A stretch of 32,466 bases of DNA from Candidatus Thorarchaeota archaeon (GCA_004376265.1 SOKL01000126.1:1-32466); one strand, 5' to 3'; shown: positions 8,395 to 14,431, numbered from the stretch's first letter. Notes: generated by a model from the letters alone, not told the origin. Numbers and translations are program-made.

Positions 8395-10554
8395 CTAAGC
8401 TGTTTCTTTCTGAATCTCTTCCTTCAGACGTTTAACCTCTCTCATTGGATCTGCGAACTCAAAGCCGTTTGCAGATAGATCTAGTGAGTCTCGAAACGTC
8501 TTAACCCGTCCATATACAGAGATGTATTTTCCAACGACTTTGTCAGAGTTCTCAATCAGTGGTTTTTCTTCCTTTTCTGATTTCTTGATAATTTTATCAG
8601 CTTCTACTGCAGTCATCTGAAGTAGTTCTTCTCCAACCTTACCAAACAGAGTAACTCTGATTGATCCCGACCCGTCATCAACAGTAATCTTGTATAGCAT
8701 CCTTGGTTCTGGATTGTCGACCTTTCCACAGGATTTGCAGACGTACCCTTCATCAGCCTCTTCCAGTTTCTTGTTACAGCTCGGGCAGGCTTGGTAGATT
8801 GGGCTCATATTCTGACTCAAGTTCACGACAATGCCACAAATCTCTACATTCTTGTCCTCGTAGTTATCACCAATATCTCCAATTAGAACTCTTGAGGCCT
8901 TTGTTAAAGGTTGTAGAGAAACCTGCGACACATCAAGTTTCTTGAGTTTGGACTTTTTTGGGTTGATTCTGATTTCAGCTTTGCGACCAACTTGGAATTC
9001 AGCATCACCCCGATACCCTTCTTTCACATATCCATGAAGAATGTGGATGATGTCGTCCGTCTTGATGTCCGTAATTTTCTCAATATCCTCATTCCAAAAT
9101 GTCACACGTATCTGGCCAGATTCATCTGCTAAAATGAGATTCCTGACCTGCCCTTCTTTATCATCCTTGGTTGTGAAAGAGGTCACGTCATATACAGTGA
9201 CAACTTTCCCCTCGATATCAACGTCCCACATTCCTGTTGCCAGATCATTGATGTCTTTCTTGCCCAAAGGTTCGGAATCAGATTGTAGAGAAACCTGCGA
9301 CACATCAAGTTTCTTGAGTTTGGACTTTTTTGGGTTGATTCTGATTTCAGCTTTGCGACCAACTTGGAATTCAGCATCACCCCGATACCCTTCTTTCACA
9401 TATCCATGAAGAATGTGGATGATGTCGTCCGTCTTGATGTCCGTAATTTTCTCAATATCCTCATTCCAAAATGTCACACGTATCTGGCCAGATTCATCTG
9501 CTAAAATGAGATTCCTGACCTGCCCTTCTTTATCATCCTTGGTTGTGAAAGAGGTCACGTCATATACAGTGACAACTTTCCCCTCGATATCAACGTCCCA
9601 CATTCCTGTTGCCAGATCATTGATGTCTTTCTTGCCCAAAGGTTCAGATCCGCTTGTAGATGGAGCTCCTTCAACTGCATCAATCTTATCCTTGAGTTTT
9701 CGCTCAATTGTGGCTGATTTTCCAATATGGACTTCGATATCAGAACCGTCACGATTCAAGCGTGTGTTTACATTCCTGAGTCTAATGACCTCGTTCTGTT
9801 CTGCACTTTCCATTTCTGTTGCGCTTTCATCCCAGAAGACAAGTCTGACATTTCCAGTTTCATCTGCTGCTATCATACTCAGAACTTTTCCTTCAGACTC
9901 GTCTCTTTGCCTTATGAAGGTAGAAAGTCTGAAAATTCTCTGAATCACAACTTTGACACTGATACCGAATAAGCCCTCTTTAAGATCTGTAATTTTCATA
10001 TCTTCAGACTGGGATGCACCAAAATCTATTCCAAGCTCTTCGATTTCATAATCCTCAAGTTGTCGGATATGCCCCCTTTGACCAAGGTTCACTTCTATAG
10101 AATCACCAAGCCCCTTTTTCACATAGGCTCCACGTAGTTGAATTACATCATCAACAGAGATGAGGTTCTCGTCAACAGTTTTTGTCAAATCATCCCATAG
10201 GACTACTCTGATACTACCAGTATCATCAGAAACTCGAATACTTGCGACCTTTCCTTCTCCTCCCCCATCTTTCCGACTGAATGTACGAACTCCTCCAATA
10301 TTGTCAACTCGAGCTGTGATTGCGATATTTCTAGTAGTTTCCGTGATGTCCTCAATTTTCTGACGTGCTGCTGGAGACATCTGATGAAGATCAACTCCGA
10401 GTTCTCTTGCCACAATCATTGCGGCAGATTCATCGTTGATTACTTCGGGTCCGAGTTCCTGACGTTTTTCCTCAATCATCTTCAATATGTCCTTACGTTC
10501 GTAGTCGGACCTATGCTTCAGAATTCTTTCTATTGTTTCCTCAAGAGTAAGCAC
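8395..10554 (-). CDS. Multi-OB-fold replication protein A with C4 zinc finger
   Basis: Five OB-fold segments (e.g. ASIRVSDDTGSIRVVLWDD; ILADESGQIRVTFWNE twice) and CPSC..CKSC in the C-terminal OB. ORF track starts at 10587; a GTG at 10554 preceded by AAGGTGAT is a better start. Confidence 0.88.
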   Translation of the reverse strand: MLTLEETIERILKHRSDYERKDILKMIEEKRQELGPEVINDESAAMIVARELGVDLHQMSPAARQKIEDITETTRNIAITARVDNIGGVRTFSRKDGGGEGKVASIRVSDDTGSIRVVLWDDLTKTVDENLISVDDVIQLRGAYVKKGLGDSIEVNLGQRGHIRQLEDYEIEELGIDFGASQSEDMKITDLKEGLFGISVKVVIQRIFRLSTFIRQRDESEGKVLSMIAADETGNVRLVFWDESATEMESAEQNEVIRLRNVNTRLNRDGSDIEVHIGKSATIERKLKDKIDAVEGAPSTSGSEPLGKKDINDLATGMWDVDIEGKVVTVYDVTSFTTKDDKEGQVRNLILADESGQIRVTFWNEDIEKITDIKTDDIIHILHGYVKEGYRGDAEFQVGRKAEIRINPKKSKLKKLDVSQVSLQSDSEPLGKKDINDLATGMWDVDIEGKVVTVYDVTSFTTKDDKEGQVRNLILADESGQIRVTFWNEDIEKITDIKTDDIIHILHGYVKEGYRGDAEFQVGRKAEIRINPKKSKLKKLDVSQVSLQPLTKASRVLIGDIGDNYEDKNVEICGIVVNLSQNMSPIYQACPSCNKKLEEADEGYVCKSCGKVDNPEPRMLYKITVDDGSGSIRVTLFGKVGEELLQMTAVEADKIIKKSEKEEKPLIENSDKVVGKYISVYGRVKTFRDSLDLSANGFEFADPMREVKRLKEEIQKETA
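8911..9645. repeat. Tandem in-frame duplication, two 363-bp copies (8911-9273, 9283-9645), period 372 bp
   Basis: The two copies read identically along their length, including synonymous positions; separated by 9 nt; each encodes one OB fold (SEPLGKKD...VSLQ). Confidence 0.95.
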
Positions 10555-10717
10555 GCAGATCACCTTCCGTCCACTAAGTGGTGGCATGGGCTATTCAATG
10601 GTTTAACTCAGATGCTTTAAAGTAATATCCTCAATTGGTCCGAGCTTGGAGAATTTTTTGGGTGTCACAAAGCGAAACACAGAATAATCCAATGATACTG
10701 ATTCAAGTTGACTTGTT

Positions 10718-13700
10718 GTGACAGAACCAGAACTCACTCTCCCTGAACATAGTATATTCTACAAACAGTATTTCGATTCACTATACGAAGAAATAAACAT
10801 AATCTATGAAATTGCTCAAAGAGCTCGTGAACAGGGATTCGATCCTACAACAAAAGTCGAAATTCCCCCTGCACATGATGTCGCTGCACGAGTTGAAGCC
10901 ACACTGGAGGGTCCAAAAGGAGTTGCAAAACGAATTCGTGAGTTTCAGGATGTGAAAGAAACACGAGAAGAAGTTGCTTTTGCTGTTGCTAAAGAAATTG
11001 CTGAGGGAACACTGAGTAATGTTACAGAAACGGTTGCAATAATTGTTAGTCGTAATCCACAGTATGAGCCCAGTCAAATAATGAAGATGGTTGATAAGAA
11101 ACGCGAAGAGCTCGGTCCTGGTGTAAATAACGGATTCGCAGCCATGGTAGTAGCAAGGGAGTGTGGAGAGAAAACTGCTAGAGAAACAGCAGAGAAGGCA
11201 GCAGATAAGGCCGTTCGAGTAGCTCTTTCAATCTTGACAGAGAGTATTACGGCTGCACCTCTTGAGGGGATTTCCAAGGTTCGTATAGAAGGTTCCGGAG
11301 ATGAACAATATCTTGCATTATACCTCGCAGGTCCGATTCGCGCTGCAGGCGGAACTGAAGCTGCAATGACGGTCTTAGTAGCAGATTATGTACGCCAAGT
11401 ACTCAACTTACCAGCATTTAGGTCATCTGAAGAGGAAACAGAACGTGCAATAGAAGAGGTGGAACTGTATGCAAGAATGGTCCATCTCCAGTATCCAGTT
11501 CATTCCGAATTAGTACGGTTTGCAGCATCAAGACTACCAATCATGTTGACTGGAGACCCAACAGAAGAATTCGAGGTTTCAGGAAGTCGCGACCTAGACC
11601 GTATTGAAACGAATAGGGTTCGTGGAGGAACCGTCCTTGTCCTCAGCGATGGTGTTGTAGGGAGAGCTGCTAAACTGGCTAAGATTGTGAGTAGTGCTAA
11701 CATTCCCGGATGGGAGTGGTTACATGAACTTGCCACAAAGATGTCAAAGACCACAAGCTTTGAAGAGGAAGATGATATCACTAATAAGACACTTGAGCCA
11801 AAGTTCGATTATCTGGCTGATGTAATCGGAGGGCGGCCTGTATTCTCCCATCCATCTCGTGTTGGGGGATTCAGATTGAGATATGGTCGTTCAAGAAACA
11901 CAGGTCTTGCAGGGGTTGGAGTTCATCCAGCTACTATGTTTATTGTTGAAGAGTTCCTTGCAACAGGTACGCATATCCGTACAGAGCGACCAGGAAAAGG
12001 GTCTATTGTTGCACCTGTTGATACTATTGAAGGACCAATTATCCTCCTGAAAGATGGTTCAGTGATACGAGTAAAAGAGAGTGATGAGGCTCGATTATTA
12101 GAAGGCAAGATTGAGCGTATCTTGTACCTTGGAGATGTGCTCGTTGCACTTGGTGAATTTCTTGAAAACAATCATCCACTTGTGCCATCAGGCTACTGCG
12201 AAGAGTGGTGGTCTCACGATCTTGATCACGCTCTGTCCAAACTATCAACGACTGAGTTAATCAAACGTCTAGGATCTAAGTTGTCACTAGAATATGTTAA
12301 TATGATGATTGACTTGCCTCTATCTCAGATACCAAACCCCGAACAAGCGGTGCATCTATCTAAAAAACTCAAGGTACCATTACATCCATACTATCTCTAT
12401 CGTTGGCTTGCATTAATGCCAGAAGACGCCTTAACATTACGGAAATGGATTCTAACAAAGCATAGTATAAAGAAAGACTCTGTTATGACTCTCCCCTTTG
12501 ATTCAAGTAACAAGAAATTACTAGAAATTATTGGTATACCTCACACACTTTCGTCTAACAAGAAATGGATTCATCTTACTGATGACCCGATTGTAATACT
12601 TGCCCAGCTTGGAAAAAAGGAGGCAAAGACAAAGGGAACAACAACTCTTGAACTATTGAATTCTGTTTCATCTGTAAAACTGATGGATAAAGTTGGATTC
12701 TCTATTGGTGCAAGAATGGGTAGACCTGAAAAAGCTGAAGAGCGTAAGATGAGGCCCCCTGTCCAAGTTCTGTTCCCTGTAGGGCGTACAAAAGGAACTG
12801 AAAGACAGATAGAGAAAGTAGCAAAGAGTATGGAGTATCAACCAACGATAGAAGATACTATCGAAGAGGATTCAACAGAACCCGATTCAAACGGTGTCGT
12901 GTTGGACACAATTGAAACCGAGATTCCTGTTGAACTTGAGATGGTCTTCCGTATCTGTCCAAACTGTTCCAATGAAACATACGAATCAAAATGTCCGAAA
13001 TGTAGAACTCCCACAATTGTATCCTGTTCGTATGAGAACTGTGGTCAACCAATTGACAATAAAACAGGCATGTGTCAATACAGCCATGAAAACAGCAAAA
13101 CTCGTGTGTATTCAGTTCGTTTGACCAATTTGATCAATCGTGTCAAGACTGAAGTAGATGAGTTTGAAGCTCATGGAGTTCGCGGTGTTCTAGGTCTCAC
13201 CAGTGACTACAAAATTCCTGAATACCTTGGAAAAGGAATTCTTAGAGCGAAACATGATGTGTATTGTTACCGTGATGGAACAGCCCGTTTTGATGCTACT
13301 GATGCTCCATTGACCCACTTCACACCTGAGGAAATTGGAGTCCCAGTCAGTCGCCTTCGAGAGCTGGGATATATCACAGATTATGAAGGAGAACCATTGA
13401 TTTCAGAAAATCAAGTAGTCGAGCTGAAAGTTCAGGATATTGTAGTTTCAGAAAATTGTGCGACGTATCTTGGGAAGGTAGGAAGGTTCGTTGATGATTG
13501 TTTAGAGAAAATTTACGGCCTTGAAAGATTCTACAAATTTGGAGCACAGGAAGATGTAGTTGGTCAACTCGTGATTGGTTTGGCCCCTCATACCTCGGCA
13601 GGAATTATTGGAAGAATAATTGGTTTCACAAATGCCAGTGTCTGTTATGCACATCCCTACTGGCACGCTGCAAAAAGGAGGAACTGTGATGGCGATGAGG

Positions 13701-14431
13701 ATGCTTTGATTCTGGTTCTTGATGCACTTCTTAATTTCTCAAAGGACTACCTTCCAGCGGGGCGTGGTGGGTTAATGGATGCACCTCTTGTTCTTTCAGT
13801 GATTCTTAATCCAACAGAGGTGGATGACGAAAGTCATAACATCGAGGTCTGTAAACGGTATCCTGCAAAATTCTACGAGATGGTTGCTGAGGCTAGGCAT
13901 CCAAAAGATGTCATGAACCTAGTGGACATAATTGCCTCACGATTGAATACAGCTGCACAATACGAAGGTTTTGGATTCACACATGACACCAAATCAATAG
14001 ATATAGGTCCAAAAAATTCACGATACAAGATACTAGGAAGCATGGATGAGAAACTCACTGCCCAATTGAATCTTGCAATATTGATAGATGCAGTAGATGC
14101 ACAAGATGTAGCTAAACGTGTTCTATCAACTCACTTCTTCCGCGATATCAGAGGAAACTTACGTGCATTTTCTACGCAGAAGATTCAATGTCAGAAGTGT
14201 AGACGCATTTACAGAAGAATACCCCTATCTGGGAAATGTGTCTGTGAAAACAAACTCTCATTGACTGTTCGACAGAAGAACATCTCAAAATATCTAGATG
14301 TCACAAGGAAAATAATCATGGATCACGACCTTGATCAGCATCAGAAAGAGCGATTGAAGCTCATCACCGCATCTCTAGATTCGTTATTCGTATCAGAACA
14401 GACTACACTGATTGACTTCTTTGAAACCTAA
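10718..14431 (+). CDS. polC: DNA polymerase D (archaeal DNA polymerase II) large subunit DP2
   Basis: YLAGPIRAAGGTEAA, GARMGRPEKAEERKMRPPVQVLFP, APHTSAGIIGRIIGF, KRRNCDGDEDALILVLDALLNFS, zinc clusters; C-terminal PIP-like QTTLIDFF. GTG start. Confidence 0.97.
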   Translation: MTEPELTLPEHSIFYKQYFDSLYEEINIIYEIAQRAREQGFDPTTKVEIPPAHDVAARVEATLEGPKGVAKRIREFQDVKETREEVAFAVAKEIAEGTLSNVTETVAIIVSRNPQYEPSQIMKMVDKKREELGPGVNNGFAAMVVARECGEKTARETAEKAADKAVRVALSILTESITAAPLEGISKVRIEGSGDEQYLALYLAGPIRAAGGTEAAMTVLVADYVRQVLNLPAFRSSEEETERAIEEVELYARMVHLQYPVHSELVRFAASRLPIMLTGDPTEEFEVSGSRDLDRIETNRVRGGTVLVLSDGVVGRAAKLAKIVSSANIPGWEWLHELATKMSKTTSFEEEDDITNKTLEPKFDYLADVIGGRPVFSHPSRVGGFRLRYGRSRNTGLAGVGVHPATMFIVEEFLATGTHIRTERPGKGSIVAPVDTIEGPIILLKDGSVIRVKESDEARLLEGKIERILYLGDVLVALGEFLENNHPLVPSGYCEEWWSHDLDHALSKLSTTELIKRLGSKLSLEYVNMMIDLPLSQIPNPEQAVHLSKKLKVPLHPYYLYRWLALMPEDALTLRKWILTKHSIKKDSVMTLPFDSSNKKLLEIIGIPHTLSSNKKWIHLTDDPIVILAQLGKKEAKTKGTTTLELLNSVSSVKLMDKVGFSIGARMGRPEKAEERKMRPPVQVLFPVGRTKGTERQIEKVAKSMEYQPTIEDTIEEDSTEPDSNGVVLDTIETEIPVELEMVFRICPNCSNETYESKCPKCRTPTIVSCSYENCGQPIDNKTGMCQYSHENSKTRVYSVRLTNLINRVKTEVDEFEAHGVRGVLGLTSDYKIPEYLGKGILRAKHDVYCYRDGTARFDATDAPLTHFTPEEIGVPVSRLRELGYITDYEGEPLISENQVVELKVQDIVVSENCATYLGKVGRFVDDCLEKIYGLERFYKFGAQEDVVGQLVIGLAPHTSAGIIGRIIGFTNASVCYAHPYWHAAKRRNCDGDEDALILVLDALLNFSKDYLPAGRGGLMDAPLVLSVILNPTEVDDESHNIEVCKRYPAKFYEMVAEARHPKDVMNLVDIIASRLNTAAQYEGFGFTHDTKSIDIGPKNSRYKILGSMDEKLTAQLNLAILIDAVDAQDVAKRVLSTHFFRDIRGNLRAFSTQKIQCQKCRRIYRRIPLSGKCVCENKLSLTVRQKNISKYLDVTRKIIMDHDLDQHQKERLKLITASLDSLFVSEQTTLIDFFET

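Follow-up and report, generated by a model that had tools for sequence, protein, structure and literature searches.

An RPA-like three-helix domain inserted in the large subunit of PolD in a Thorarchaeon

In 2023, the DUF2240 region that begins Rpa1 received the name AROD and was described as an acidic three-helix bundle (Madru et al. 2023, PMC10122647). AROD makes contact with OB-1 and OB-4 on adjacent RPA molecules and weakens the hold of OB-1 on ssDNA (PMC10122647). In an isolated AROD-OB-1 construct, a triple mutant of the OB-1 contact of AROD raised the ssDNA affinity about tenfold, and the partners described for AROD are RPA OB folds alone (PMC10122647). In DP2, the large subunit of PolD, a KH-like domain lines the template entry and guides the single-stranded template (PMC6355029). 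Communication between RPA and PolD in archaea is known to involve the winged helix of Rpa2 and the Accessory-1 region of DP2 (PMC11686378).

We analyzed a locus in which an RPA-type domain lies within DP2 itself. The window is the whole stretch of 32,466 nucleotides (nt) from Candidatus Thorarchaeota archaeon (GCA_004376265.1 SOKL01000126.1:1-32466), located on contig C210 of the source assembly. This assembly comprises 3.04 Mb in 393 contigs, with an estimated completeness of 91.4% and an estimated contamination of 8.3%. The insert is known from one species, represented by one MAG and a single assembly. The following features were delineated (window coordinates):

8395..10587, minus strand: RPA gene with AROD and OB folds, 730 aa (ORF; Rep_fac-A_C and OB-fold matches)
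10387..10554, minus strand: AROD domain of RPA (residues 12-67), paralogous to the insert (DUF2240 match; alignment to PDB 8aa9)
10588..10717, no strand: divergent intergenic region between RPA and DP2, 130 bases (from gene coordinates)
10718..14431, plus strand: gene of the PolD large subunit DP2, GTG start, 1237 aa (ORF; PF03833, PF24844, PF24846)
10718..11008, plus strand: DP2 N-terminal (anchor) helices, residues 1-97 (aligned in 29 DP2s; helices in the model)
11009..11029, plus strand: retained native linker TLSNVTE, residues 98-104 (alignment; TLGNITE or TLGNITD in relatives)
11027..11188, plus strand: insertion, putative AROD-derived three-helix domain, approximately residues 104-157 (absent in relatives; similarity to RPA AROD; fold match)
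11189..11737, plus strand: DP2 downstream region, residues 158-340, including the KH-like domain with PIRAAGGT at residues 206-213 (aligned with the DP2s of P. horikoshii and P. abyssi)

Like other archaeal DP2s (PF03833, PF24844, PF24846; PDB 3o59, 5ijl, 6hms), the window DP2 has the full domain set and the KH-like motif. The N-terminal, central, and catalytic domains and the PIRxxGGT motif (PIRAAGGT, residues 206-213) are present, and the NCBIfam polC and PRK04023 models were both matched above cut-off. Unlike in the archaeal DP2s examined, an additional domain of 53 residues separates its anchor helices from its KH-like region. RPA (10587-8395, minus strand) and DP2 (10718-14431, plus strand) stand head to head, as the initial annotation had read them. 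This order is conserved across the Thorarchaeal family: in nearly all relatives, matches to the RPA N-terminus were located on the strand opposite to DP2, a few hundred bases upstream of it. The RPA start as listed is an ATG at nt 10587, 11 residues ahead of the AROD (window 10552-10587). In several relatives, the RPA frame starts where the window has V12, encoded by GTG (nt 10554), and this codon may be the true start.

The similarity between the two proteins was quantified by local Smith-Waterman alignment. DP2 residues 104-151 and RPA residues 17-64 share 24 identities in 47 positions with one gap, exactly the count made by eye in the initial annotation. Its coordinates were also right, with SNVTETVA from DP2 residue 100 (nt 11015) and the RPA match from residue 17 (nt 10539, minus strand). 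The alignment score was 112, whereas 2,000 shuffles averaged 23 and did not exceed 44, and BLASTP of the DP2 segment against the RPA segment of the same genome gave E = 1e-14. An HMM of 24 family RPA N-termini, from which the insert was left out, matched the DP2 insert with 46.7 bits (i-Evalue 2e-16, computed in a two-sequence search space). No match of the general Pfam DUF2240 model was reported on the DP2 segment. When the whole genome was searched with the segment, only DP2 itself and the RPA N-terminus were matched. The match in the initial annotation held, but the first residues of its segment, TLSNVTE, belong to the native linker and not to the insert. The insertion is clean and in frame and adds a net 53 codons to the linker that joins the anchor helices to the KH-like domain, with native linker kept upstream (TLSNVTE) and downstream (AEKAADK) and the frame maintained at both ends; its edges (approximately residues 104 and 157) are uncertain by a few residues.

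The fold of the insert was compared with known structures. In RPA, the N-terminal module gives a Pfam match to DUF2240 (1.7e-5) and can be aligned with AROD-OB-1 of P. abyssi (PDB 8aa9). In a model of DP2 residues 1-340, built on an alignment with almost no homologues across the insert, the latter forms helices at residues 102-112, 118-132, and 138-149 (block pLDDT 90-96). Folded alone from its single sequence, with no alignment, it again gave three helices (pLDDT 88). A sequence-profile search of the PDB with an AROD alignment returned nothing meaningful, and therefore a fold search was used. When 350,542 PDB chains were searched by Foldseek with the insert model, the top three chains were 8aa9_A, 8aa9_B, and 8aaj_A, all P. 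abyssi AROD. The best AROD match had a probability of 0.96 and an rmsd of 1.8 over 52 columns; the E-values were near 1 because the domain is tiny, and it is the ranking and probability that carry weight. The host fold is intact: compared with residues 1-300 of P. horikoshii DP2, the DP2 N-terminal model reached a TM-score of 0.85 (by target length). We are confident in the predicted three-helix bundle. Thus, the insert resembles P. abyssi AROD (PDB 8aa9, 8aaj) as a three-helix bundle of about 50-55 residues with AROD as its best PDB fold match, and it is homologous in sequence to Thorarchaeal RPA AROD. In contrast to AROD, it is located inside DP2 and not at the Rpa1 N-terminus before OB-1.

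The insert is absent from 23 DP2s of the same family, including those of 14 of the 15 congeners, and from six DP2s of other families of the phylum. In the fifteenth congener (G006), which is outside this count, DP2 is cut by a contig end. In the 29 insert-free DP2s, the anchor helices pass directly into the KH-like region or are followed by unrelated short expansions. The stretch from AKEIAEG to AVRV measures 24-31 residues in 80 named DP2 loci (Thor-, Loki-, Heimdall-, Hermod-, Jord-, and Njordarchaeota, Methanobacteria, Methanosarcinales, haloarchaea, and others) versus 78 in the window. P. horikoshii DP2 has about five residues at the insert site, and the flanks are contiguous in Pyrococcus as the initial annotation had stated (query residues 100 to 158 correspond to chain residues 93 to 98). 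When 227 genomes of the phylum were scanned with a profile, the window DP2 was the only DP2-sized frame among the matches listed (to about 4e-6). A weak DUF2240 match in a 1224-aa frame of G196 was rejected: BLAST did not match this frame to DP2, and its sequence looks like that of a long helical protein. When a DP2 tree was built with the insert removed, the window branched alone, and its sister group consisted of five congeners that lack the insert (support of the six-member clade, 100/99). Judged by this topology, a single gain on the terminal branch of the window is the simplest history. The proposal of a lineage-restricted extra domain homologous to the RPA N-terminus was thus borne out by the DP2 sampling and by the profile and fold searches. 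Of the two contrary outcomes that had been named beforehand, an ancestral DP2 segment and the lack of a profile relation, neither occurred: the segment is absent from the other DP2s examined, and the profile and fold searches tie it to the RPA module.

The same linker is expanded in two other genomes, by about 28 residues above the usual length in G017 (L026:1117-2058) and by about 12 in G014 (L021:1504-2394). These expansions are unrelated to the insert. The one in G017 has a slight look of a partial repeat of a neighbouring DP2 helix.

As to the donor, the RPAs of the Thorarchaeal family score 96-130 against the insert, compared with 46-76 for 18 RPAs from other Asgard families, indicating that the source is evidently an RPA of this family. 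The insert is very probably a copy of the AROD domain of such an RPA. The intragenomic transfer suggested earlier therefore stood with respect to a donor within the family, but the RPA of the same genome is no closer to the insert than RPAs of other genera. It scores 112 and is not singled out, whereas RPAs of other genera reach 130, and the identities amount to 23/49 with the own RPA versus 26/49 with an RPA from another genus. The insert and the own RPA are 61% identical in DNA. In an AROD tree, the insert is on a very long, unplaced branch, and synonymous change is unusable for dating it, since dS is saturated even between congeners. No relative of the insert was found in viral contigs when a viral donor was considered. 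These comparisons would fit either a copy from the own RPA with subsequent fast change or a transfer from a relative.

The simplest route would be local copying of the adjoining RPA gene, and signs of recombination at the locus speak for it. One OB fold of the RPA gene is tandemly duplicated (372 bp; window 8911-9660); the copies are 98-100% identical, and identical over the best compared 270 bases. A near-identical OB pair of its own, with a 378-bp unit and likewise identical over the best compared 270 bases, is present in the RPA of G011 (L117:4700-5432). The equivalent pairs in G003, G005, G008, G012, and G013 are 71-78% identical, and the extra OB is lacking in the other congeners G002, G006, G007, G009, G010, and G015. 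The pair in the window thus appears to be the product of a recent duplication or gene conversion.

The insert has changed considerably in comparison to the RPA domain. The dN between the insert and the own RPA is 0.34; that between the own RPA AROD and sister RPAs is 0.04-0.06 for four of five and 0.10 for the fifth. A simulation of neutral change from the own RPA, which was run to about the same identity and assumes this RPA as the donor, predicted an AROD profile score of 36 ± 6 bits. The real insert scores 51 bits (P = 0.008), showing that, given the own RPA as donor, its fold is constrained beyond drift. In the same simulation, the retention of family-invariant columns (12/21) was not significant (P = 0.15). 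Acidity was not kept: the net charge of the insert is 0, the value that the simulation predicts for drift, in contrast to -5 in the own RPA AROD, -4 to -8 in all 24 family ARODs, and -6 in P. abyssi. According to the alignment, the positions of the P. abyssi OB-1 salt-bridge residues K16, E23, and E27 (the first is numbered K16 in the methods of the paper and K17 in its main text; PMC10122647) are occupied by N113, Q120, and M124 in the insert. This salt-bridge test is weak, as in Thorarchaeal RPA itself just the E23 position is mostly acidic. As regards the shared binding partner that the initial annotation had suggested as a possibility, both losses, of acidity on the surface and of the salt-bridge residues, speak against the known AROD contact having simply been inherited. 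The insert is therefore to be called AROD-derived and not a proven AROD.

We propose that duplicative recombination across the adjoining head-to-head RPA/DP2 pair is the probable origin of the insert. The predicted three-helix module beside the KH-like domain would constitute an extra protein-contact bump, which may weakly touch the OB folds of RPA on the incoming template. Such a contact could help to hold PolD near RPA-coated DNA or could loosen RPA ahead of the polymerase. This resembles the interplay of the Rpa2 winged helix with DP2 Accessory-1 (PMC11686378) as a route of RPA-PolD communication, but another domain and another DP2 surface would be used, and the RPA-type domain is built into the window DP2, whereas the known contact is made in trans. 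By analogy with these systems, an RPA contact beside the template entrance can be suggested only tentatively as the mechanism. For an AROD-derived origin and a contact function taken together, we see about even chances. That PolD took the OB-binding domain of RPA and uses it in cis to engage and loosen RPA on the template seems rather improbable. The combined reading of origin and contact has against it that the insert lacks the acidity and the salt-bridge residues, that the own RPA is not the closest one, that the DUF2240 model does not match the DP2 segment directly, and that only one species and one MAG are concerned.

About as likely as the RPA contact, and thus also a tentative reading, is that a self-folding domain is carried along in a permissive surface linker and has no partner, its fold being kept since misfolding is costly in an essential polymerase. 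The unrelated expansions in G014 (L021) and G017 (L026) suggest that the site tolerates extra sequence, and the drift of acidity to the neutral expectation and the restriction to one species are in line with this. The AROD profile, kept above the drift prediction (P = 0.008), speaks for more than carriage, although a folding constraint alone could account for it. A horizontal transfer of the domain from the RPA of another Thorarchaeon, after which it was either functional or merely carried, appears unlikely. The higher scores and identities of other genera's RPAs (up to 130 versus 112; 26 versus 23 of 49) would support such a transfer, but these score differences are small and the insert is on a long, unplaced branch. 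Moreover, the adjoining RPA gene is the nearest template, and neither another genomic copy nor a viral relative was found.

The 8.3% estimated contamination and the single assembly behind the species raised the question of a chimeric join that created the extra segment. We consider this artefact highly improbable: the insert is in-frame at both ends, with native linker on both sides, its fold is preserved, and it is identical to nothing else in the genome. Its DNA identity to the own RPA is only 61%, too low for a stray copy of a neighbouring read. The probability is close to nil for an ancestral DP2 segment lost elsewhere or an internal duplication of the DP2 N-terminal helices. A similar helix pattern is hinted at by a second Pfam DP2 stretch, which overlaps the first and places residue 128 at profile position 55. 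However, the insert scores only 26 against the own N-terminus of DP2 (shuffle mean, 23) versus 112 with RPA, and internal duplication was therefore rejected. An ancestral segment was rejected because it is absent from every other DP2 examined, Pyrococcus structures included.

If the proposed RPA contact is correct, the window DP2 would have a cis handover at the active-site entrance, while other archaea would depend on separate contacts. The lineage-specific capture of a domain from a replisome partner is unexpected in DP2, an ancient and essential replication protein. The case ties AROD to the polymerase itself and offers a natural fusion for testing whether ssDNA is handed over from RPA to PolD by way of AROD. 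In addition, it shows that whole domains can be accommodated in the anchor/KH linker of DP2.

Unusually long DP2 frames (1641-1701 aa, an excess of about 500 residues) were noted in G030:C142, G033:C242, and G034:C256; the additional residues are possibly inteins. In addition, small proteins of about 96-126 aa (G000:C132:8747-8911, with similar frames in many family members) match only the first half of the DUF2240 model. The RPA AROD matches its second half, and Pfam DUF2240 may thus join two different units.
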